Shown: positions 6,132-48,778 of the stretch, piece after piece
How the letters are laid out: each line of letters starts with the position of its first letter
Position numbering within the stretch: the first letter of the stretch is position 1
Source: a virus
DNA length: 50,141 nt
IMG/VR virus record: IMGVR_UViG_3300022693_000155
Coordinates: 1 to 50,141 of that record
Direction: 5' to 3' (one strand)
The notes under the pieces: model-generated
What the model saw: the letters and a program-made list of their open reading frames with translations, nothing else
The model's database searches: none
Told to the model about the DNA's origin: nothing
Position numbers and translations under genes: made by a program

Positions 6132-6320
6132 TTATTCCCCTTTCTTACCTTTAAACAAACCTTCCAAAGAATCTGAAACAACCCAACCTGCAAAGACCAT
6201 CATTGCGAGTGGTGTTAAGTTATCCCAGAAATGTACTTCTCCAAAAGCACTTTCAAACATCGAATGCCAAGCTAATACACATGCTAAGGCAATCTTCATT
6301 AGGTTGTCTAACTTATCCAT
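6132..6320 (-). CDS. Small membrane protein, 62 aa
   Basis: The preferred start is the ATG at 6320, with AGGAG 7 bases upstream; the longer frame to 6365 lacks such a site. Two hydrophobic stretches (MKIALACVLAWHSMF and LAMMVFAGWVVSDSL) suggest two TM segments, followed by a basic tail. It overlaps the upstream 35-aa TM peptide gene by 8 bases. Function unknown. Confidence 0.65.
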   Translation of the reverse strand: MDKLDNLMKIALACVLAWHSMFESAFGEVHFWDNLTPLAMMVFAGWVVSDSLEGLFKGKKGE

Positions 6321-6420
6321 TATTCTGCTCCTGTTCTTTAAGCTGCTTTTCAAATACACCAACATGGTTGAGGGTCAGTAAAATGCCTGCGAAAATAGTG
6401 CTGAGGATGATAATGTTCAT
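6313..6420 (-). CDS. Single-TM peptide, 35 aa
   Basis: Encodes MNIIILSTIFAGILLTLNHV and then a charged tail rich in Gln, Lys and Glu. GGAG lies about 10 bases before the ATG. Its tail sequence carries the ribosome site of the 62-aa membrane protein. It is the first gene after the thyX terminator. Membrane insertion is inferred from the hydrophobic N-terminal half. Confidence 0.55.
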   Translation of the reverse strand: MNIIILSTIFAGILLTLNHVGVFEKQLKEQEQNNG

Positions 6421-6441
6421 AAGGTTGCTTCTCCAAAATGT

Positions 6442-6492
6442 GCTGATAAAAATAAAGCCTGTGAAGATATGATAAACACATCTTCACAGGCT
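6442..6492 (-). terminator. Terminator after thyX
   Basis: A perfect 13-bp stem, AGCCTGTGAAGAT (6456-6468) with its complement (6480-6492), encloses an 11-base loop. Leftward transcripts read TTTATTTTTATC just after it. It lies directly behind the thyX stop, so it insulates the distal small genes or reduces readthrough to them. Confidence 0.85.
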
Positions 6493-6501
6493 GTCAATAG
6501 G

Positions 6502-7236
6502 TTACTCAGAATTATTTTTAAGGGCTTTCCAAGATACGGGGAATAAGGGTTCAATAATGTTGCTTACCATCTCCTCAAGTTCATTGATCTCACCTTGTGC
6601 ATGGCTATCAGAACGTTGGATAGCAAATCGTGCATAGGCTGCTAAAGAACCTGTCCAAATCCATGTCACTTCTACACCTTGGGGTAATACAAAGCGTGCT
6701 TGTTCAGGGGCTACGTCACCAGCAATCATGTTTTCGTAGGTTGAGATAGCTTGATTACAGTGAGCAATGTACTGGTTTTGCCATTCCCCATTTAAAGGAT
6801 GAATACCTCCTGATCCTTGTTTAATGCTTCCCTCAGGCTTACTACGAAAATCTGGGATGAAAAGTGATGGTGTACTGCTCAAGTATCTTTTTGACTGCTC
6901 ATTCTCGACAAACCCCTGCTTATGCTTAAAACATTGTGTACGAATTGGTACGGGTGCTGTCATACGTAGTGAAATCTGACAATGTGCAAAGGGTGTCCAA
7001 TGTGTAGGAATGTTTTTCACTTCGTTAAGAAGATTACGGATACCTTCTTTGTCGGATGTTCCTTGTAAAAACTCAGCGGCCTTATCCCAATCTTTAGATG
7101 ACCAACCGCTCGCAAGGAACTTGATAAGCCCCTCATCACCACTGTCAAATTCTTCTTTCCAGTTGTTAAAGCTTACACGTGCAACGTTAGCTACACGAAG
7201 GTCGTTACCCATATGGTCGATATACACAGCTTCCAT
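6502..7236 (-). CDS. thyX: Thymidylate synthase ThyX (FAD-dependent)
   Basis: Flavin-dependent thymidylate synthase converting dUMP to dTMP with methylene-tetrahydrofolate and NADPH. The signature region reads FKHKQGFVENEQSKRY, a variant of the canonical RHR-x7-S motif with both arginines changed to lysine. The IRTQCFKHK context matches phage ThyX proteins I recall. PEQARFVLP and WIWTGSL in the C-terminal half fit the family. GGAGGAG is 7 bases before the ATG at 7236; the ATG two codons earlier (7242) is too close to it. The gene works with the nrd operon at the right end to supply dNTPs. Confidence 0.9.
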   Translation of the reverse strand: MEAVYIDHMGNDLRVANVARVSFNNWKEEFDSGDEGLIKFLASGWSSKDWDKAAEFLQGTSDKEGIRNLLNEVKNIPTHWTPFAHCQISLRMTAPVPIRTQCFKHKQGFVENEQSKRYLSSTPSLFIPDFRSKPEGSIKQGSGGIHPLNGEWQNQYIAHCNQAISTYENMIAGDVAPEQARFVLPQGVEVTWIWTGSLAAYARFAIQRSDSHAQGEINELEEMVSNIIEPLFPVSWKALKNNSE

Positions 7237-7261
7237 TAACATTCTCCTCCAAAATTATCTA

Positions 7262-7477
7262 TTAAAACCACTGACCTTCAAGGTATAACAAAGCAACTTC
7301 ACAAGGGTCTTCATAAAGAAGATTTGGGAGTGCTTCACAGTATCCATAAGAAAGCTGGTAAACTTCACACCAATCAATATCAGTTCTCACAGAACATACT
7401 TTTGCTGTGAAGGCTAATGCCCAGACTTGTGGAACATACTTGGGCATTTTGTATTTTACAATAGCTGTGCTACCCAT
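7262..7477 (-). CDS. Hypothetical protein, 71 aa
   Basis: Starts MGSTAIVKYKMPKYVPQVWAL, with a middle segment DIDWCEVYQLSYGYCEALP. Two cysteines and many aromatics are present. GAGGAG lies upstream within the end of the 57-aa gene. Family not recognised. It lies between thyX and other unknown small genes. Confidence 0.6.
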   Translation of the reverse strand: MGSTAIVKYKMPKYVPQVWALAFTAKVCSVRTDIDWCEVYQLSYGYCEALPNLLYEDPCEVALLYLEGQWF

Positions 7478-7479
7478 AT

Positions 7480-7653
7480 TCAGTTCTCCTCAATATCGCA
7501 ATGATCTTTCAGAAAGTCAACATAAACCTTCTCACCGATCAGCTTTTCAATCACCTGCTCTAGTGTCTCACCAGTGTTCTTCACGACCTTATCAGCAAAC
7601 TCTTGTGAAGCATTTTCAAAGGTTACTACCAAGCGTCCTGTATCTTCAAGCAT
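7480..7653 (-). CDS. Small hypothetical protein, 57 aa
   Basis: Starts MLEDTGRLVVTFENASQEFA and ends KDHCDIEEN. It is acidic and helical. GGAGG lies 7 bases before the ATG. Spacing to both neighbours is a few bases. Found by reading the frame. Function unknown. Confidence 0.65.
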   Translation of the reverse strand: MLEDTGRLVVTFENASQEFADKVVKNTGETLEQVIEKLIGEKVYVDFLKDHCDIEEN

Positions 7654-7668
7654 TTTACACCTCCGTTC

Positions 7669-8079
7669 TCAGTGCATTCTATAAAAACTTTCATACTCTA
7701 CTTCAGTCCAATCCAAATTGCTATCCACAATGATGATCTTGTCAACATTCTTCACAGCACCATTCGCAAGGCACTCAACATATTCATCACGCTCCTCATC
7801 ATCTTGGAATGTGTAACATCTTGATGATCCATCCTTCATAATAGCGACTGTGTGAAAGAGCTTTGGAGTACCATACAGCATATTTTGCACAGTGTCTATA
7901 TAATTTGTGATGATGTCGTTATTTTCTGCGAGAGTATCGTCAGCAAGTTGTTGGAGGATGTCATCATCGAGAGTGTCTAAATAGTCGCGTCCGTAGAGTT
8001 GGATAAGGTCTACAGAGGCACCACCATCTCCTGTAATTTCTATCCAAGGGATTACGGAGGTTGTTAGTTTATGTGTCAT
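7669..8079 (-). CDS. Hypothetical acidic protein, 136 aa
   Basis: Not recognised. The N-terminal TSVIPWIEITGDGGASVD is followed by a helical acidic region (TLDDDILQQLADDTLAE). A C-terminal part has FQDDEERDEYVECLANGAVKNVDKI-type organisation, cut here for length. It overlaps the next upstream gene stop by 11 bases. Likely soluble. Confidence 0.65.
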   Translation of the reverse strand: MTHKLTTSVIPWIEITGDGGASVDLIQLYGRDYLDTLDDDILQQLADDTLAENNDIITNYIDTVQNMLYGTPKLFHTVAIMKDGSSRCYTFQDDEERDEYVECLANGAVKNVDKIIIVDSNLDWTEVEYESFYRMH

Positions 8080-8311
8080 TTATAGCAAGCTCCTCTTGAA
8101 GACGTTTGTTAAAAGATTCCCAACCATCGTCACCAGATAACAACCAATCTAAACGATGTACATAGGTCTGTGCAAGTTCTAATTGGTGTTTGCACAAGGC
8201 TATGTGGGTCTTGGTGTGCATCTCAACATCAGGGTTTTGCAAGTCTTCTTCCATAATCTCGACAATATCTTGGATATTATACTGTTTGTAATCATATCTT
8301 CCTCCCGACAT
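8069..8311 (-). CDS. Conserved phage protein, MSGGRYDY family
   Basis: 80 aa from MSGGRYDYKQYNIQDIVEI. Short phage proteins opening with MSGG-x-YDY are common and uncharacterised. The ATG at 8311 has AGGAG 9 bases upstream, whereas the ATG at 8320 abuts that site directly and is unlikely to be used. Helical and soluble. Confidence 0.7.
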   Translation of the reverse strand: MSGGRYDYKQYNIQDIVEIMEEDLQNPDVEMHTKTHIALCKHQLELAQTYVHRLDWLLSGDDGWESFNKRLQEELAINDT

Positions 8312-37425: not shown

Positions 37426-40209
37426 ATGGATGCAAATAAATTAACAAATTTTACGAAGGTTCTCCATAAAAATGATAGAGCTTCGGAAGTCTTGGTGTTT
37501 GATGGACAAGGGAACACATCCTCTATAAGCCCCGAAGACCTTGTGGTCGGTACAGCAACGAAGCTGGAAACTCCTGTGCAAATTGATTTCCAAGGTGATA
37601 TACAGGGTGTGTTGTCTTTTAATGGTTCGGAAGAAACGCCCGTTGTTTCAAATATCACTGTAAAGGATAACTCTCATAACCATACTATAGATAATGTTTC
37701 GGGTCTGAGAGGTGAGATCGACAGTAAGGTTGATGTTGCTGATTATAAAGATTCGGATGTTAAATTAAAATACGAATCTAACGCTGACACCAATGCTTTT
37801 ACGGATTCTGAAAAGTCTAAACTTTCCACAGTAGAAACTGGTGCTGAAGTAAACACTGTCAACTCTGTCTTAGGGCAAGTTGGGGATGTAGACCTTGATA
37901 CGGATGACATTGCGGAAGGCTTGACTAACCAATACTTTACAACAGATCGTGCTAGAAACTCTATCAGTGTGTCTGGTGATCTCAGTTACTCTAGTGGTGT
38001 TATATCCTTCAACGAAACCTATTCTACACCTTCCGAAGTAAAGACAGCTTATGAATCTAACGCTGATACTAATGCTTTTACTGATTCTGAAAAGTCTAAA
38101 CTTTCCACAGTAGAAACTGGTGCTGAAGTAAACACTGTTAATTCTGTCAACGGTTATTCTGGTAATGTTAGCCTCGACAAGTCCGATGTAGGTTTGTCAA
38201 GCGTTACTGATGATGTCCAGTTGAAACGTGATTCTAACTTGTTGGATGTACCTAACAAATCGTTTGCTAGAACAAACTTAGGTCTTGCGGAGGTTGCAGC
38301 AACAGGTAACTTTGCAGATATGTCCGGTGAAGTAACTGAGTCACAGCTATCCCAAGAGCTTGCTGAGAAAGTCAACGATACGTTACCGTATAATTTAGAC
38401 GCTACAACAGCTCCTACGGCTAATGATGATATAAACGCAGGCTGGAAAAGAGGCTCCTTATGGATTGATACGACTAGTCAAAAGGCTTACAGGTGCGTCG
38501 ATAACACCAGTGGTGCAGCAGTGTGGGTGGACACTTCCTTAAGTACTTCTGAACTTGCAACAGTTGCTTTGTCGGGTTCTTATAATGACCTTAACAATAA
38601 ACCTTCTAATGCAACTGAAACAGTATCAGGCTTTATGTCTGCCAGCGATAAGGCTAAACTAGATACTGTAGAGACTGGTGCTGAAGTAAACACGGTTAAT
38701 TCTGTAGCAGGTAAGACTGGTCTGGTAACACTCAACACTTCAGATGTTTCAGAAGGGGCTAACCAATACTTTACAACAGATCGTGCTAGAGAAGCTATAT
38801 CAGTTTCGGGGGATTTAACCTATTCTAATGGCATTATCTCGTTCAATGAGACCTATTCTACGCCTGTAGACATTAAGACAGCTTATGAATCTAATACCAA
38901 CACCAATACTTTTACGGATTCTGAAAAGTCTAAGTTAAGCGGTATTGAGGCTGGTGCTCAAGTAAATGAACCAACTAACTTAGGAAGCTCTCGTACAAGT
39001 GTTGCCTACAGCGTGTCATCTTCAACAGGTTCCAATACATCTTTACAAGCTGCGACGACTACTCTAGCAGGGGTTATGACTGCCGCTGACAAGGCTAAAT
39101 TAGACAGTGTTGAAGAAGGTGCTGGTGTATCTAATGTAGATTCTGTCAATGGTCAAACTGGCACAGTCTCTTTAAGCACTGACAACATCCCTGAAGGTAA
39201 TGTTAATGACTACTTTACTATAGAGAGGGCAAGAAACTCTATAAGTGTTACTGGTGATCTTACCTATTCAAACGGTGTGATTTCTTTTAACGAGACTTAT
39301 TCAACACCTTCCGAAGTAAAGACCGCTTATGAGAGTAACGCTAATACGAACGCCTTTACTGATTCTGAAAAGTCTAAGTTAAGTGGTATTGAGGCTGGTG
39401 CTGAAGTAAATGATGTTGAAGAAGCGCCTATCAATGGGAATCAGTATGCTAGGCAAGATGGTGGCTGGACAACTGTTGATGTTGAAGAAGCCCCTATTAA
39501 CGGTAATCAGTACGCTAGACAAGACGGTGGTTGGACAATACTGAGTATTCCAGAAGGTTACACCTCGACAGATTTTAACACAGATTTTAACAGTAAATCT
39601 ACTGATGATCTTTCGGAGGGTACTACTAATCTTTACTACACAAACGCTAGAGCTTCTAACGCAGCGCCTGTCCAAACTGTATCAGGTAAAACTGGAAATG
39701 TCTCTTTAACATCTTCTGATGTAGGTTTAGGTAGTGTCAGGAATGTTTCAAGTTATTCTCAGGCTGAAACTAACAACCTTTTAAATGGCAAGCTAGATGT
39801 GTCAGCAGATGCACTGGGGATTGATTTTGTAGATACTAGGGCCATAGCTGACAACCCTGCTGATATAAGGGAACAGTCATTCAGCGCCGCTTTTAAGTCG
39901 AATAGCTCCGTAGACAGTCCCCCCGTCACTGCTAACTCATCTTATTCACATATACTACGCAGTAATGGTTGGCGAGATGGGTCAGGAGGTTTTGCGACGG
40001 AGTTAAGTTTAGGTTCTGGCGGCATTGCTTTCAGGCAGGGAGTCTCGAACACTGCGTGGGGGAATTGGTATACGTTTTACCACACAGGTAACGATGGCCC
40101 TGGAAGCGGACTCGACGCAGACACTATAGACGGCTACCAAGCACAAGACTTCGCATACCCTAATCAACCACAAATAGCAAACATAACCTTAACAGGCGAC
40201 TTCGCATAA
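37426..40209 (+). CDS. Long tail fibre with internal repeats
   Basis: 927 aa. The middle consists of repeats containing YESNADTNAFTDSEKSKL and VETGAEVNTVNSV, interleaved with YFTTDRAR...SISVSGDL units. These are typical of elongated fibre shafts that bind host receptors. Two tandem copies of APINGNQYARQDGGWT lie near residue 670. The C-terminus has DADTIDGYQAQDF, a motif of phage fibre tips. No chaperone cleavage motif is obvious. Confidence 0.85.
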   Translation: MDANKLTNFTKVLHKNDRASEVLVFDGQGNTSSISPEDLVVGTATKLETPVQIDFQGDIQGVLSFNGSEETPVVSNITVKDNSHNHTIDNVSGLRGEIDSKVDVADYKDSDVKLKYESNADTNAFTDSEKSKLSTVETGAEVNTVNSVLGQVGDVDLDTDDIAEGLTNQYFTTDRARNSISVSGDLSYSSGVISFNETYSTPSEVKTAYESNADTNAFTDSEKSKLSTVETGAEVNTVNSVNGYSGNVSLDKSDVGLSSVTDDVQLKRDSNLLDVPNKSFARTNLGLAEVAATGNFADMSGEVTESQLSQELAEKVNDTLPYNLDATTAPTANDDINAGWKRGSLWIDTTSQKAYRCVDNTSGAAVWVDTSLSTSELATVALSGSYNDLNNKPSNATETVSGFMSASDKAKLDTVETGAEVNTVNSVAGKTGLVTLNTSDVSEGANQYFTTDRAREAISVSGDLTYSNGIISFNETYSTPVDIKTAYESNTNTNTFTDSEKSKLSGIEAGAQVNEPTNLGSSRTSVAYSVSSSTGSNTSLQAATTTLAGVMTAADKAKLDSVEEGAGVSNVDSVNGQTGTVSLSTDNIPEGNVNDYFTIERARNSISVTGDLTYSNGVISFNETYSTPSEVKTAYESNANTNAFTDSEKSKLSGIEAGAEVNDVEEAPINGNQYARQDGGWTTVDVEEAPINGNQYARQDGGWTILSIPEGYTSTDFNTDFNSKSTDDLSEGTTNLYYTNARASNAAPVQTVSGKTGNVSLTSSDVGLGSVRNVSSYSQAETNNLLNGKLDVSADALGIDFVDTRAIADNPADIREQSFSAAFKSNSSVDSPPVTANSSYSHILRSNGWRDGSGGFATELSLGSGGIAFRQGVSNTAWGNWYTFYHTGNDGPGSGLDADTIDGYQAQDFAYPNQPQIANITLTGDFA
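37765..39540 (+). repeat. Fibre shaft repeat array
   Basis: Imperfect coding repeats. The ESN-x-x-TNAFTDSEKSKL unit begins near 37770, 38045, 38880 and 39330, with shorter AS/ADKAKLD versions near 38640 and 39090. The YFTTDRAR...NETYSTP unit occurs three times (about 37930, 38765, 39210). APINGNQYARQDGGWT is duplicated at about 39424-39537. The DNA copies are diverged but still recombine-able. Confidence 0.75.
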
Positions 40210-40232: not shown

Positions 40233-42395
40233 ATGGCTAAGATTGAAAAACCCTTAAACCTTACGAATACAATTTGGGCAGCAGGTGGTGAATCTGTAGA
40301 ACCCTCTAATTCAAAGAAACTCCAAGGGTGGGTTGCTGAAATCCCCCCTTTCCAATTTGAAAACTGGCTTCAAAACCGTAATGACCGTGCGCTTGCACAC
40401 ATTATCCAAATGGGTATCCCTGAATGGGATGCAAACACTGAATACCAAGCTAACCAATCTTATGTGCAAGACGAAGATGGTGAGATTTACCGTGCAACTG
40501 AAACCCATACAGGTGTCAATCCTAAGTATGATACTGCAAACGTATGGGAACAACCCTTCTCATTCGATGCTCTAAAAGAACTTGCTACAGAAGAATCTAC
40601 AGGTGTTGCCCGTAAAGCTGCTCAACAAGATATTGACCAAGGTACTCCTGGTTCTATCTTTGCAGACCCTTCACAGATTCGACAGCTTGTTGAGAATATC
40701 AACGCATCTTGGATAACAGGCGGTATTCTTTCAAGCGGTACGTTACCGGATGCTACGGAATCTTCTAAAGGTGCTGTGCTTAAAGCACGTCAATCAGATA
40801 TTGACAATGGTGTTGGTGATGATCGTTTTATTAGCCCTCGTCAGTTAAAATCCGTAGCTGATGATATTAAATCAACAACTGCTGGTGTAGCTTTATCAGG
40901 TAATCCTGTAATTACGGCAGGTTCTTCTGAGAATTATCAAATCACTAACTTCTCATCTTTTGATACTTATGAAGTTTCTATTGAGTTTGATAACGGTGGT
41001 ACTGGGAATGTCTCTATTACGGATGATCTAATTTCTGTAGATATTGATGCAGGTGCTACTGGTGGGGTCGTTTTAACAGTCACTAAAGGGGGTGTTGCTT
41101 ATGACTTCGAACTTGCTATTGGTTCCTCCCAAATCAACCGTCCATCTATTGTATTCCCTGTAAATGGTGCTACTAATATGCCTACAAATATCACGTTAGA
41201 ATCTTCAAACTTTACAACCACACCAGCAGGTTTTGACACCCATACTGCAACTGATTGGCAAGTAGCTACTGACATCACGTTCAGTAATGTTATTGCAGAG
41301 TCTTTAAATGACACAACCAATCTTTTACAGTGGTCTGTAGATGCTGATTTACAACCTAATACAACCTACTATGCAAGGGTTCGTTACTATGGCAATACCT
41401 TAACAGTTTCTTCTTGGTCACAGACAGCTTCTTTTGATACTGCTGAACGGCCTGCCACACCTACTGTTACAAGCCCTTCGAATGGTGAGATTAATGTTGG
41501 AGAAACACCGACAATCACTACGAGTAACTTTTCAAGTCCTATTAGTGAAACCCATCAAGCAACAGATTGGGAAATCCGTTTAGCTTCGAATGATTCTTTA
41601 GTATGGTCTTCGATGAACAACACTTCTAATCTTACTTCTATTACGGTTCCTTCAGGACAACTTGCTGAGTCTACTGAATACCGTATCCGTGTAAGACATA
41701 TCGGTTCTCAGTTAGGAGCTTCTGCATGGGGAACTTCTACATTTACTACTGAAGCGCAATTCTTTGTATTTGACCCAAGTAGTGCTGGTGAACCTTTTGG
41801 CGGTGGTTATTATGCTGGTGCTAATATTGTTGTTGGTGGTACTACTTATGCGTTGGTAGTTGCCCCTAAAGCGCAAGGTGGTGAAACAGGTTCAGCGTTG
41901 ACTTGGGGTGTTACTTCAGATGTTCCAGGGGCAACCTCTACTAATGATGGTGCAAGTAACACCGCAGCGATTGTAGCGGCAGGTGGTTCTTCTACAAGTG
42001 TTGCAGCGGGGTTTTGTGATAACCTCAATATCAATGGGTATACTGATTGGCATTTACCTAGTGCTGATGAGTTAGAGATTTGTTATCGGTATTTGAAACC
42101 AACTACTCAAAGTAACAACACTAGTACACGTTCTTTGCATGGTGCTATTAACGGTACTAACCCTAATAGTGTTCCTGTAGGCAGTGGATATACCACATCC
42201 GATCCAGCACGGACTTCAATCGCTATATACCAGGACGGTGCAGGAGAAGCGTTTACTACTGCTAACTACTACTGGACTTCCACGCAGGCCTCCTCTGGGA
42301 TCGCTTGGGGCCAGTTCTTCGTCAATGGCTTCCAGTCCACGTACGACAAGTCGACCTTGCTCTACGTCCGCGCCGTTAGATGGGTCGCAGTGTAA
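40233..42395 (+). CDS. Receptor-binding tail protein with C-terminal DUF1566 lectin-like domain
   Basis: 720 aa. Residues about 70-105 (WDANTEYQANQSYVQDEDG) resemble a carbohydrate-binding module. Two Ig/FnIII-like repeats follow at about 305-415 and 416-525 (SIVFPVNGATNMPTN; TPTVTSPSNGEINV). The C-terminal 190 residues match DUF1566: WHLPSADELEICYRYL, YYWTSTQ and a final VRAVRW. DUF1566 is a C-type-lectin-like fold used for variable receptor binding in diversity-generating retroelements. The last 130 bases are sharply G+C-richer than the rest. Confidence 0.85.
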   Translation: MAKIEKPLNLTNTIWAAGGESVEPSNSKKLQGWVAEIPPFQFENWLQNRNDRALAHIIQMGIPEWDANTEYQANQSYVQDEDGEIYRATETHTGVNPKYDTANVWEQPFSFDALKELATEESTGVARKAAQQDIDQGTPGSIFADPSQIRQLVENINASWITGGILSSGTLPDATESSKGAVLKARQSDIDNGVGDDRFISPRQLKSVADDIKSTTAGVALSGNPVITAGSSENYQITNFSSFDTYEVSIEFDNGGTGNVSITDDLISVDIDAGATGGVVLTVTKGGVAYDFELAIGSSQINRPSIVFPVNGATNMPTNITLESSNFTTTPAGFDTHTATDWQVATDITFSNVIAESLNDTTNLLQWSVDADLQPNTTYYARVRYYGNTLTVSSWSQTASFDTAERPATPTVTSPSNGEINVGETPTITTSNFSSPISETHQATDWEIRLASNDSLVWSSMNNTSNLTSITVPSGQLAESTEYRIRVRHIGSQLGASAWGTSTFTTEAQFFVFDPSSAGEPFGGGYYAGANIVVGGTTYALVVAPKAQGGETGSALTWGVTSDVPGATSTNDGASNTAAIVAAGGSSTSVAAGFCDNLNINGYTDWHLPSADELEICYRYLKPTTQSNNTSTRSLHGAINGTNPNSVPVGSGYTTSDPARTSIAIYQDGAGEAFTTANYYWTSTQASSGIAWGQFFVNGFQSTYDKSTLLYVRAVRWVAV
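42276..42395 (+). other. Variable-repeat-like 3' end of receptor-binding gene
   Basis: Directly after the YYW codons (42267-42275) the sequence becomes G+C-rich. From TGG onward most codons end in C (GGC, TTC, TTC, GTC, GGC, TTC, TCC, TAC, GAC, ACC, CTC, TAC, GTC), and the gene then ends in an R-A-V-R-W core. Runs of NNC codons are what adenine mutagenesis of AAC codons in a template repeat produces. No reverse transcriptase or template copy is seen in the window. Confidence 0.6.
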
Positions 42396-42461
42396 CGCAG
42401 CGAAGCGTAGTTGGAACGAAGTACCCATCCCTATAACCCTAAACCTTGGTGGCGTCGTTCC
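42393..42461 (+). repeat. Inverted repeats after the variable-repeat-like end
   Basis: ACGC/GCGT flank a 6-base loop right after the stop. GGAACGA (42413-42419) pairs with TCGTTCC (42455-42461). Retroelement target sites of this class usually carry a hairpin or cruciform just after the variable repeat. Confidence 0.45.
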
Positions 42462-42493
42462 TACGGAACTCTTTACACCGCATTTAAAATACT

Positions 42494-42563
42494 AGAACCT
42501 CTTGTTGACATCGGGTAATTATATTTACAAACTAGATCATAACAAAAGCAAACAAGAGGTTCT
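42494..42563 (+). promoter_or_regulatory. Perfect 13-bp inverted repeat masking HNH ribosome site
   Basis: AGAACCTCTTGTT (42494-42506) pairs with AACAAGAGGTTCT (42551-42563) around 44 bases. The right arm contains AAGAGG, the ribosome site 8 bases before the HNH start. TTGACA (42505-42510) lies in the left arm, without a good -10. The hairpin should silence translation in long late transcripts. Confidence 0.65.
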
Positions 42564-42567
42564 TTAA

Positions 42568-43101
42568 ATGAAAATAAACAAACTACCGTCAAATGAGATT
42601 TTACACGAATGTTTTGAATACAAAGAGGGTAATCTTTATTGGAAACATTCAAGACCTGAAAACCATTTTAACACACCTTCTCAACACAAGAGATACTTGA
42701 AAACTTCTGCTGGAAAACTTGTGGGAACTTTACTATCTTCAGAGTATTTAACAGTTACTTTTACAATAAGAGGTAAAAGGTTTTCATGCCTTGTTCACAG
42801 GATTGTCTATAAAATGCTGAGGTGTTGTTGCGATGACTTTTTAGTAGACCACATAAACGGTGATCGAAAAGATAATCGTATAGAGAACCTCCGTAAAGTG
42901 ACCTCTTCTCAAAACCTTTCTAATATGAAGTGTAAAAAGAAGTCTGGTTTAATGGGAGCCTACTACGATAAAACCAATAAACGTTGGAAGTCTCAAATAA
43001 AGATGAATAAAGTTTTGCACCACTTAGGATGGTTTAATACCGAACAAGATGCTCACGACGCCTACATGAAAGTGCGTACAGAGCTACATAAGACATTTTA
43101 A
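42568..43101 (+). CDS. HNH homing endonuclease with AP2-like DNA-binding domain
   Basis: 177 aa. The HNH core is LVHRIVYKMLRCC...LVDHINGDRKDNRIENLR, carrying the H, N and N of the motif. The C-terminal GAYYDKTNKRWKSQIKMNKV and LGWFNTEQDAHDAYM form an AP2-type three-strand domain that binds DNA. It lies just 3' of the receptor-binding gene and before its assembly protein. It is free-standing and probably cuts neighbouring fibre DNA in competing phages. Confidence 0.9.
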   Translation: MKINKLPSNEILHECFEYKEGNLYWKHSRPENHFNTPSQHKRYLKTSAGKLVGTLLSSEYLTVTFTIRGKRFSCLVHRIVYKMLRCCCDDFLVDHINGDRKDNRIENLRKVTSSQNLSNMKCKKKSGLMGAYYDKTNKRWKSQIKMNKVLHHLGWFNTEQDAHDAYMKVRTELHKTF

Positions 43102-43114
43102 GGAGCATTAATAT

Positions 43115-43729
43115 ATGAAATACATCCGTTACACATTAGTTGATAAGAAAACCAATAAACCTGTTTCACAAGAACCTGCAAAGAATGGCCCAAAACATCC
43201 TGACGGTGTTACCCCAACATTCGATATTCAATCAACATTCTCAACAGGTGTTCCTACAATCTACGGTATTGCTGAAGATACTTTTGAACCCGCTGATTGG
43301 ATGTTTGAACTATCTGAAGAATCCTTCTACACCACCATGCGACAAGAGTTTAAAACCCGTGCTTCGGATCGTCGCAAGACTGTAGAGCGTGGTGGGTATT
43401 GGGTAACTCCTGAGACTTTTGTAAGAACTGACGAAGGTTCTCAGAACCGTCTTGCACAGCTTGTGACAACCATTAATAACGATCCTGATCTTGTATCAGT
43501 AGACTTCGAAGTAACACCTGGACAATGGACAACCTTTGATACGGCTACTGCATTAACGGTTGCAAAGACAGTATCAAGTCATGTCCAACGCTGCTTTAGT
43601 TGGTGCAGAGGTGTCCATGAGGCATTAGATGCTGCAAGCACTTTAGAAGAAATGCAACCTATTGTAAATGATATTTCAAACTTTGTTGCTGACGATAACC
43701 CGCCTGTGCAGGCTACACAAGATGCTTGA
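43115..43729 (+). CDS. Tail fibre assembly-related protein (DUF4376-like)
   Basis: 204 aa. The C-terminal part (TALTVAKTVSSHVQRCFSWC and ALDAASTLEEMQPIVND) is typical of DUF4376-like proteins encoded after tail fibres, often linked to fibre assembly or attachment. The N-terminal half has no recognised domain. AAGGAG lies upstream of the start. It overlaps the next TM gene by 8 bases. Confidence 0.65.
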   Translation: MKYIRYTLVDKKTNKPVSQEPAKNGPKHPDGVTPTFDIQSTFSTGVPTIYGIAEDTFEPADWMFELSEESFYTTMRQEFKTRASDRRKTVERGGYWVTPETFVRTDEGSQNRLAQLVTTINNDPDLVSVDFEVTPGQWTTFDTATALTVAKTVSSHVQRCFSWCRGVHEALDAASTLEEMQPIVNDISNFVADDNPPVQATQDA

Positions 43730-46084: not shown

Positions 46085-48778
46085 TTATGCTTCACAAGCC
46101 ACGCAGTCATCCTTACGGCCCGTAGCAAGTTGTTTAGAGGCGTTCAAGTTGTATTGGTAGTAGAGTGATACAACACCACGTTCCCAAGCATAATACATAA
46201 GACTGTTAATCTCTTTCACAGGCATACTTGGATGAACCATGATATTCAAAGACTGGCTCTGGTCATAATATACCTGACGATCAGCGGCGTGGTCAATAAT
46301 TTCTTTAGGACTGATTTCTTGCATTGTCTTGAACACATTCTTTTCATGTTCACTCAAGAAGTCCAGATGCTGAACACTGCCATCATTTTTAGAAATGCTG
46401 TCCCAAACGTCAGGTGTGTCCTTGCCATATTCTTGCAAAAGCTTTTCCAATGCTGAACTTTTAACTTCTACCTTGAGCTTTGCAAAATCAGCAATGTAAT
46501 AGTTAGAGAATAGTGGCTCAATACCCTGCGACACACCGCCAGCCAAAAGACTTGAAGACTTTGTAGGGGCGCACGCCATGAGCGTTGTGTTACGTCTCCC
46601 ATACCCTTCAAGCACTTCAGGTTCACCAAACAATCCTGCAAGCTCTTTAGAAGCCTTGTAAGCCTTCTCTTCAATAACCTTATGGACTTCTTTGTTCAAT
46701 TCTCTTGCTTCTTCAGACTCAAAAGGGATCATCTTGTCTTGAAGCATTGTGTGGTAAGCTAGTACGCCCATTCCGAGCGCTCTGTGACGCTTCATAAAAC
46801 GATATGCACGCTTCATAAAAAAGAATGTTGTTTCCTTTTCATGGTCTTCAGAATCCCTCATAGCTTCAAGTTTCTCAAGGCTTTCTGTAACTACTGAGTC
46901 AAGGAAGTACACAAGTGTTTCTACAGCATCCGTGTCTTTCCAATCATCATACTTCTTCAAGTTCATTGATGAAAGCACGCACACAAAGCTCTCTTCATTG
47001 TTTGAAGGCAGTGATATTTCCGAGCATTGGCCTGTCAAAATACCGTTAAACATACCCATTCCACGTTTACTTTCAGTGAAACAGTAGGTGTTGTCATAAC
47101 GCCCCTCATCAATAACTTCTACCACTTTGTTGAAGTGGCTGCATTCACGGTTCCCACGATAACTGTAGTCAAGATTAAGGCGGCTAAATTTTATACCTAA
47201 ATCTACAAGCTTGCCTACTTCATGTTGACCGAGCAATAATCTCCAAGCTTCTTGGCAATAGAACGCTTTATTCTCACCAGAACCATCATTAGCAGGCATC
47301 GTCCTTTCACCAGCATCGGCAGCATGGTTGATACGTGAGTTGACCCCAAGCGTTTGCAGCATCATTTGAACATCTTGCAAAAACCCTTTGTTAATACTCC
47401 CCAGTTGCAAGGATTGTGTCTTTCCATTTCTGGCGATTGTCCCATCAGAATCGAATATACCTGCTAACCATTCTAAACGACTTTCTACAGTATAGTCATG
47501 GGTAGGCACAAAGAACTTATCTTTCAATACATCGCTGTGACCATACTCTCGGTTCAAGTTGTCTTGAACATACCAATTTTTAAAGATGTCTCCAAGCCGT
47601 TCTTTTACAGCATTGAGTCTTTTGTCGTGGTAGAGGTAAATGCGTTTTCCGTCAGCAGTTAAGCAGCCATCGCCAGTATAGAAACCGTTTGCGTAAGCGT
47701 TGTCTAGGACTTCGGAACCCTCTACGACAGGCAAAGAGTCAAACTTAATCAGTTTATCACCGGTTTGCAATTCCTGTGCGCGCTTTTCAATCACTTTACT
47801 ACGGCTGTAGGAAGTCTGCACATAGAACTTATGGTAAGGTGTACATTCTAGTTCCAATCCATTAGAAGTAATAACCTTTACAAGCTTCTGGTTATCCCCT
47901 GTCCTTCGAACTGTAGTTTCAGACCACTCTTTACCATTCCATACTTGTACATCTTCATTTTCTAATTCGGCAATTTCGATATAACCTTCAGAAGTTAAGA
48001 TTTTAGTCTCGGGGGATACACAAAGATTACTAGAGTGAATATCCATACCCTTGTCTTTGTAGACTTCTGGTTTATTTCGATTTGCGTTATCCAACCACAC
48101 CAAGTACGGAAAGCCTATCTCTCCACGAACTTTCAAAGTTTTCGCCCAAATCTTACGGTTCCGCTTATCTCTTTCAGTCTCCCCGCGTTTAACAGATTCC
48201 ATAAATTCATCTGAAACAGTGACACCTGTAGTGACATCTTGAATCAAATTACCGTCGCGGGCAATCTCTAAAAACTCTTCTGCGTCCGCGTGCTCAAGAC
48301 TTAGATAGGGTGCTACCCGACCCCTCCGCTGCGAACCTTGAGAGATTACATCAGTAACCTGCTCGAAGAGTCGTGCAAAATGTACTGCTCCAGAAGTCTT
48401 TCCATTATTGGTAATGTCGCTACCCCTTGGTCGAATAGGTGTTAGATTAACTGACGTGCCACCCCCAAGTTTTGACATAATACCAATCTCAGACTGTGTA
48501 AAAAGAATGTCTGGAATGCTGTCTTCACAGTGACTGTTAAAACATGAGATAGGCAACCCACGATCTTCACGGCCATAGTTTGCCCACACAGGACTCGACA
48601 AGCTATAGAAACCCTTTGCCATGTAGTCATACATCTTGTCAGAGAATCCTTCTAACCCAAGACGTTTCTCAGCAGCATCGCAAATATCTCGGATACGTCC
48701 TTCGGCAGTTTCTCCCTCTAATGTGTATCCAGACTGTAGAAATTTACGTGAGTTTTCGTTCAACCATTCAAATGACAT
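46085..48778 (-). CDS. nrdA: Ribonucleotide reductase large subunit with intein
   Basis: An 897-aa precursor. Without the 332-residue intein (C253-Q584) the enzyme is 565 aa. Class I alpha subunit reducing NDPs. The redox cysteines are C79 (PISCFNSH), C585 (SNL-C-SEI, equivalent to E. coli thiyl-radical C439) and C600 (ESFVCVLSS, equivalent to C462). KLGGGTSVNLTPIRPRG is the nucleotide region. The C-terminal DDCVACEA is the swinging CxxC that glutaredoxin reduces. There is no N-terminal ATP-cone. AGGAG lies 10 bases before the ATG, just after nrdB. Confidence 0.93.
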   Translation of the reverse strand: MSFEWLNENSRKFLQSGYTLEGETAEGRIRDICDAAEKRLGLEGFSDKMYDYMAKGFYSLSSPVWANYGREDRGLPISCFNSHCEDSIPDILFTQSEIGIMSKLGGGTSVNLTPIRPRGSDITNNGKTSGAVHFARLFEQVTDVISQGSQRRGRVAPYLSLEHADAEEFLEIARDGNLIQDVTTGVTVSDEFMESVKRGETERDKRNRKIWAKTLKVRGEIGFPYLVWLDNANRNKPEVYKDKGMDIHSSNLCVSPETKILTSEGYIEIAELENEDVQVWNGKEWSETTVRRTGDNQKLVKVITSNGLELECTPYHKFYVQTSYSRSKVIEKRAQELQTGDKLIKFDSLPVVEGSEVLDNAYANGFYTGDGCLTADGKRIYLYHDKRLNAVKERLGDIFKNWYVQDNLNREYGHSDVLKDKFFVPTHDYTVESRLEWLAGIFDSDGTIARNGKTQSLQLGSINKGFLQDVQMMLQTLGVNSRINHAADAGERTMPANDGSGENKAFYCQEAWRLLLGQHEVGKLVDLGIKFSRLNLDYSYRGNRECSHFNKVVEVIDEGRYDNTYCFTESKRGMGMFNGILTGQCSEISLPSNNEESFVCVLSSMNLKKYDDWKDTDAVETLVYFLDSVVTESLEKLEAMRDSEDHEKETTFFFMKRAYRFMKRHRALGMGVLAYHTMLQDKMIPFESEEARELNKEVHKVIEEKAYKASKELAGLFGEPEVLEGYGRRNTTLMACAPTKSSSLLAGGVSQGIEPLFSNYYIADFAKLKVEVKSSALEKLLQEYGKDTPDVWDSISKNDGSVQHLDFLSEHEKNVFKTMQEISPKEIIDHAADRQVYYDQSQSLNIMVHPSMPVKEINSLMYYAWERGVVSLYYQYNLNASKQLATGRKDDCVACEA
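47027..48022 (-). mobile_element. LAGLIDADG intein in NrdA
   Basis: Splicing block A is CVSPETKILTSEGYIEI from C253, and block B is ECTPYHKFYV. The endonuclease helices are YANGFYTGDGCL (about 362-373) and WLAGIFDSDGTIA (about 437-449). Blocks F/G end NTYCFTESKRGMGMF, then NGILTGQ before the +1 Cys. The C-terminal residue is Gln instead of the usual Asn, and the penultimate residue is Gly instead of His. Self-splicing restores a continuous SNL-CSEI active site. Confidence 0.9.

Follow-up and report, generated by a model that had tools for sequence, protein, structure and literature searches.

Does a tail-fibre gene that ends in what looks like the variable repeat (VR) of a diversity-generating retroelement (DGR) belong to such a system when no reverse transcriptase (RT), Avd gene, or template repeat (TR) is visible around it, and if so, how has the repeat come to vary? 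The window, by which we mean the whole stretch of 50,141 nt that was analyzed, is a linear fragment, and the rest of its genome probably amounts to ~22 kb more, corresponding to positions 20925-42961 of the relative G002 (3300020369_000001). The further genomes compared were L001 (contig 3300037991_001592), L032 (a 51 kb contig syntenic with the window), and L025 (IMG/VR 3300035670_006408), which was found by a pattern scan for the conserved 3' end of the window VR and is syntenic with the window at a DNA identity of ~67-71%. We consider it very probable that the fibre is an orphan DGR target, which has retained its VR while its own retroelement was replaced by an HNH gene (Table 1).

Table 1. 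Features of the fibre locus in the window and of the DGR cassettes in two relatives
Feature	Genome	Position	Strand	Basis or remark
Target (variable) protein gene, 720-aa tail fibre	window	40233-42395	+	PHROGs/Pfam; L025 and L032 orthologues are DGR targets
Lcl_C (DUF1566) C-type-lectin-like domain	window	41781-42395	+	Pfam PF07603, 4e-10
Mosaic module (distal Lcl_C, VR, block, HNH) common to L001	window	~42100-43105	+	informative-site scan
VR, 90 nt	window	42282-42371	+	A-restricted differences to L025 template and between relatives
3' end of TR/VR homology, TACGTCCGC; TR-VR divergence point (IMH-like)	window	42363-42371	+	alignment with L025 and L032 TRs
Conserved block, mostly beyond stop codon, absent from TR	window	42372-42438	+	comparison with L001 and G002
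Inverted repeat GATGGGT (42379-42385) / ACCCATC (42423-42429)	window	42379-42429		37 nt between arms
Inverted repeat GTTGGAACGA (42410-42419) / TCGTTCCTAC (42455-42464)	window	42410-42464		90% complementary
Slot that holds Avd, TR, and RT in L025 (5576-7294) and L032	window	42453-43114		all three absent here
HNH endonuclease gene in the retroelement's place	window	42568-43101	+	PF13392, 1.6e-11; phrog_99, 1e-46
DUF4376 tail-fibre-associated gene, downstream synteny anchor	window	43115-43729	+	PF14301, 1e-10; adjoins RT in L025 and L032
Target (VP) gene	L025	3357-5519
Avd	L025	5633-6013		phrog_3206, 1e-11
TR	L025	6147-6236
RT	L025	ends 7298		phrog_1423, 2e-96; DUF4376 gene starts 7295
TR	L032	5867-5956		beside Avd and RT, in syntenic place

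The fibre is laid out as a phage tail-fibre N-terminus, Ig-like repeats, and a C-terminal Lcl_C domain, in agreement with the DUF1566 C-type-lectin domain named in the initial annotation. An AlphaFold2 model of this domain has a pLDDT of 94.9, and its best PDB match by both fold and profile is the C-terminal domain of Legionella Lcl (8q4e); TM-scores to 8q4e are modest (0.37-0.57), so the assignment of the fold rests on the profile and the structural match together. The runner-up by fold, 4eps, served as the structure for DUF1566 targets of DGRs in PMC4159848. The candidate VR thus stands where a DGR places it, in the 3'-terminal part of a gene whose product is C-type-lectin-like (or Ig-like). 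The codon shift read from the letters in the last ~130 bases of the gene is borne out by composition, with a GC of 0.60 in 42273-42392 vs 0.35-0.52 across almost the whole gene and a third-position G+C of ~80-85% in the last 40 codons vs 26% in the first 640, and the conserved-looking V-R-A-V-R core lies within the protein's final residues, YVRAVRWVAV. The 927-aa tail gene preceding the fibre gene (37426-40209) is made of internal repeats of 60-210 nt. Another viral contig (L003, 18 kb) carries, at 6204-8237, three to four Lcl_C open frames in tandem, one with an internal stop, and has no RT anywhere along its length.

A search for templates in relatives recovered syntenic TRs in L025 and L032, each accompanied by Avd and RT, which contradicts the possibility allowed for at the outset that no relative would hold an adenine-restricted template. 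Within each of these two genomes, VR and TR differ at adenines only (15/33 adenines and 0/57 other bases in L025; 14/35 and 0/55 in L032). As a control, the same comparison was made at 61 RT-bearing loci that a search with the L025 RT had recovered, L025 and L032 among them; their VR/TR differences fall almost only at A, most loci having no non-adenine difference and all but one having at most two. Measured against the L025 TR, 20 of the 33 adenine columns and 8 of the 57 others are altered in the window VR (P = 1e-5). When the VRs of the window, L001, and G002 are compared pairwise, 13-16 of the 33 adenine columns differ vs 2-3 of the 57 others (P = 8e-5 to 5e-7), and every codon change is nonsynonymous, with no synonymous change. 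Variation between relatives is concentrated in the template-adenine columns, and the confinement of VR variation to template adenines that marks a DGR was found here.

The AAC origin proposed for the NNC codons also finds its counterpart in the template: of the 30 codons from 42282 on, 10 are NNC codons aligned with AAC in the L025 template (aa 686, 690, 693, 695, 697, 700, 702, 704, 708, and 710), and aa 705 corresponds to AAC in the L032 template. Two of the non-adenine columns, 42298 and 42346, would seem to reflect adenines in a template specific to this lineage, to judge from the GNG and NNC codons in which they lie, and two window changes (42294 and 42358) lie outside the known template adenines. 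Judged from sequence comparison, 42282-42371 is a genuine DGR variable repeat, heavily rewritten. The location given for it in the initial annotation stands, while the bounds given there, 42276-42395, were somewhat too wide.

In both L025 and L032, the cassette runs in the order target gene, Avd, TR, RT, and then the DUF4376 gene. Homology between the window and L025 breaks off near 42452 and picks up at 43115, and the machinery is missing between these points. The window has no RVT_1 match, tblastn with the L025 Avd gave no significant match in the window or in G002, and an adenine-masked scan of both strands of the window found no TR, in line with the earlier statement that none of the three is visible in 50 kb. 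The absence of an RT from 50 kb is weak proof when taken alone, because the window is a linear fragment of a genome that is probably ~22 kb longer. G002 is 92-98% identical to the window over most of the shared part, and it is complete, its ends overlapping by exactly 77 bp to give a circle of 72,762 bp; its sequence also occurs in the Methylophaga-labelled MAG contig PAJP01000006.1, where two VR copies are spaced 72,762 bp apart. No RVT_1 match was obtained in the complete G002 genome even at E 10, and the adenine-masked scan of both its strands found no TR. RT, TR, and Avd are therefore lacking from G002 as well as from the window, and the missing 22 kb of the window phage is unlikely to hide an RT. 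The contig PAJP01000006.1 (G010:C6; also L028 and L030) carries the phage genome as a 1.6-copy repeat, which is either a host hint or a binning artefact.

What fills the slot is a gene overlooked in the initial annotation, a predicted endonuclease with the HNH domain of the HNH homing endonucleases. L001 carries the same HNH gene, with 94.8% identity over aligned bases, while G002 carries a different one at the same site, with 37% aa identity to that of the window; the gene downstream of it is 97% identical in protein between G002 and the window. Two such distant alleles at one site require at least two insertions or one swap, and it is this pair of alleles that suggests homing at the slot. 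Among 48 loci with HNH relatives elsewhere, none of these genes lies beside an Lcl_C gene or a DGR. In the L001 copy (L021, 2164-2696), a 2-nt insertion shifts the frame, reflecting either decay or an assembly error. A perfect 10-bp inverted repeat (42497-42506, ACCTCTTGTT; 42551-42560, AACAAGAGGT) covers the likely ribosome-binding site of the window HNH gene and could serve in translational repression of that gene.

Between the VR and the slot lies a conserved block. The window and L001 are identical at 89/89 positions in 42364-42452, and within the block itself the window differs from G002 only at 42374, at 42388, and by one indel, whereas around it the two are 23% divergent before the VR and hardly alignable after 42439. 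The block is conserved in both HNH modules and is a candidate cis-acting target element; a role as 3' UTR is possible. The inverted repeats reported after the stop codon are present, as listed in Table 1. In phage DGRs, a hairpin or cruciform with a GRNA loop lies 4-34 bp behind the VR (PMC3240598). The 7-bp repeat of the window starts 7 nt behind the VR and has a long loop of 37 nt without the GRNA motif; by analogy, it could be the hairpin or cruciform required there, and the canonical GRNA-loop form was not found behind the window VR. Its arms pair in 5/5 relatives, including L032 with one compensatory A-T to G-C change, though this conservation is weak evidence, since it comprises four distinct sequences and 112/500 shuffles do equally well. 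An Rfam scan of 42000-43200 gave nothing beyond one sub-threshold match.

Whether the VR was rewritten before or after the loss of the RT can be addressed with the module that the window shares with L001. Downstream of ~43105 and in ~41300-42000 the window agrees more with G002, and further upstream the informative sites are mixed. Within the module, the stretches on either side of the variable part (67 bases upstream and 89 downstream of it) differ at 1/156 positions between the window and L001, and the HNH gene at 28/534 (P = 0.01), while 13 of the 33 template-adenine columns differ (P = 2e-10 vs the flanks). Most simply, the module would descend from an HNH-bearing ancestor. Because the flanks are near-identical and the HNH gene is shared while the adenine columns differ, the VR appears to have changed after HNH replaced the retroelement. 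Recombination is frequent in this phage group, and timing arguments from a shared module are not compelling by themselves. On balance, we lean towards a VR that was still being rewritten after local loss of the RT, whether through supply in trans or through VRs brought in ready-made by recombination; such rewriting would need either an outside RT and template or the import of finished VRs.

The course of events we propose starts from an ancestral locus of tail fibre (with VR), Avd, TR, RT, and DUF4376 gene, an arrangement that L025 and L032 still have. Avd, TR, and RT would then have given way to an HNH gene in the lineages that led to the window, L001, and G002, with the VR and the conserved block retained. 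The VR would be the product of adenine-mutagenic retrohoming from an AAC-rich TR, by which about ten residues of the lectin tip were randomised, and RT and template would have come from DGR-bearing relatives, either in trans at co-infection or through recombination of ready-made VRs.

Five explanations of the varying VR were weighed. Ongoing diversification in trans, where RT, Avd, and TR come from a resident prophage or from a related phage infecting the same cell, fares best and is a real, if tentative, possibility. It accounts for the 13/33 and 1/156 differences within one shared HNH module and for the retention of the block behind the VR in phages without an RT, and in BPP-1 (PMC3240598) targets carried by a recipient phage or plasmid are rewritten when avd, brt, and TR are provided on a donor plasmid. 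Against it, a donor with the right template was not found. Searches of viral contigs, of ~85,000 genomes (with an exact pattern), and of 63 genomes from the order to which the MAG belongs yielded no template with the window's non-adenine VR bases; no TR was found in the Methylophaga MAG, and 24 genomes from its genus showed no DGR RT. The VR donor is therefore hypothetical, with a sought TR of the form CAGAACTTCAACAATGGCAACCAGAACACGTACAACAAGTCG. The TRs of L025 and L032 were rejected as direct donors, with 8-9 non-adenine mismatches per 90 columns to the window VR. Apart from the phage itself, the genome pattern scan matched a chance Mycobacterium sequence and a template-like stretch in a Patescibacteria MAG (L029, 1560-1664) whose core, CAGAACTTCAACAATGGCAACCAGAACACGAAC, is as in the L025 phage template, so that an L025-type TR core occurs near-identically in another phylum. 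The only RTs in the Methylophaga MAG are two adjacent genes (L102), which by eye look defence-type, possibly a DRT pair.

Less well placed, and in our view somewhat doubtful, is a frozen relic, in which HNH genes entered the slot in several DGR-bearing phages and each VR has been fixed since. Two distant HNH alleles at the same site would fit such a history, as would the two non-A changes in the window VR, which resemble ordinary drift. It is opposed by the window and L001, where a single HNH allele has diverged by 5% and the VR flanks are nonetheless nearly identical, since old, separate VRs predict the opposite. Rather unlikely is the import of ready-made VRs from DGR-bearing relatives through homologous recombination spanning lectin domain and block: mosaicism at the fibre locus is clear and the block is the last homology common to HNH-bearing and DGR-bearing loci, but two exchanges would be needed with donors of nearly identical flanks, and none was seen. 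Very little probability attaches to an RT and TR in the unsequenced part of the window phage itself, an option raised in the initial annotation, alongside supply in trans and capture by recombination, that the linear window would leave room for but that complete G002, with neither, speaks against. The absence of any DGR, with ordinary positive selection or domain swapping at the lectin tip, is scarcely credible, for although nearby lectin-domain sequence is likewise divergent, the changes track the adenines of an independent template and no VR codon change is synonymous.

Compared with known systems, the locus resembles the BPP-1 DGR (mtd-avd-TR-brt) in its C-type-lectin-like receptor-binding protein, its 3' VR, its adenine-directed variation, and, in L025 and L032, its target-Avd-TR-RT gene order, and supply in trans works in laboratory BPP-1 (PMC3240598). 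It differs in that the window, L001, and G002 have an HNH gene instead of Avd, TR, and RT, Lcl_C takes the place of Mtd as target domain, and no GRNA-loop hairpin was identified. The target domain is the same as in the DUF1566 (Lcl_C)-target DGRs (PMC4159848). The Pseudomonas phages LPPA56, Cruim01, and SC_8_H2H8_2017 have RTs ~49-52% identical to that of L025 and an Lcl_C relative nearby, and, unlike the window, they keep the RT near the target. DGRs with remote targets likewise have a target without an adjacent RT, but in their case target and RT share one genome, whereas the complete relative G002 has none; remote targets go undetected in an RT-anchored DGR survey, as the survey itself states (PMC8144416). 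No precedent for a VR lacking an RT, or for a DGR replaced by an HNH gene, came up in the literature that we searched.

A DGR target thus persists in a phage whose complete genome encodes no RT, and its variation probably post-dates the loss. Conceivably, the lineage has outsourced its diversity generator, with selection maintaining both the VR and the target element, and with DGRs of co-infecting relatives doing the rewriting in trans. If true, this would be a public-good or cheater relation between phages, and the locus makes the sharing of DGR diversification between phages in nature testable.

At this locus, homing-type endonucleases and retroelements alternate in one slot behind a receptor-binding gene. 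Free-standing phage HNH homing endonucleases of phrog_99 share with the window gene the HNH_3 domain, the intergenic position, and different alleles per site; the window gene differs in occupying a retroelement slot. The phage seems to be a frequent target of homing elements. Elsewhere in the window, on the minus strand at 46085-48778, the large subunit of ribonucleotide reductase is split by an intein with a LAGLIDADG domain, and a gene in L032 (10386-12386) looks by eye to be interrupted as well.
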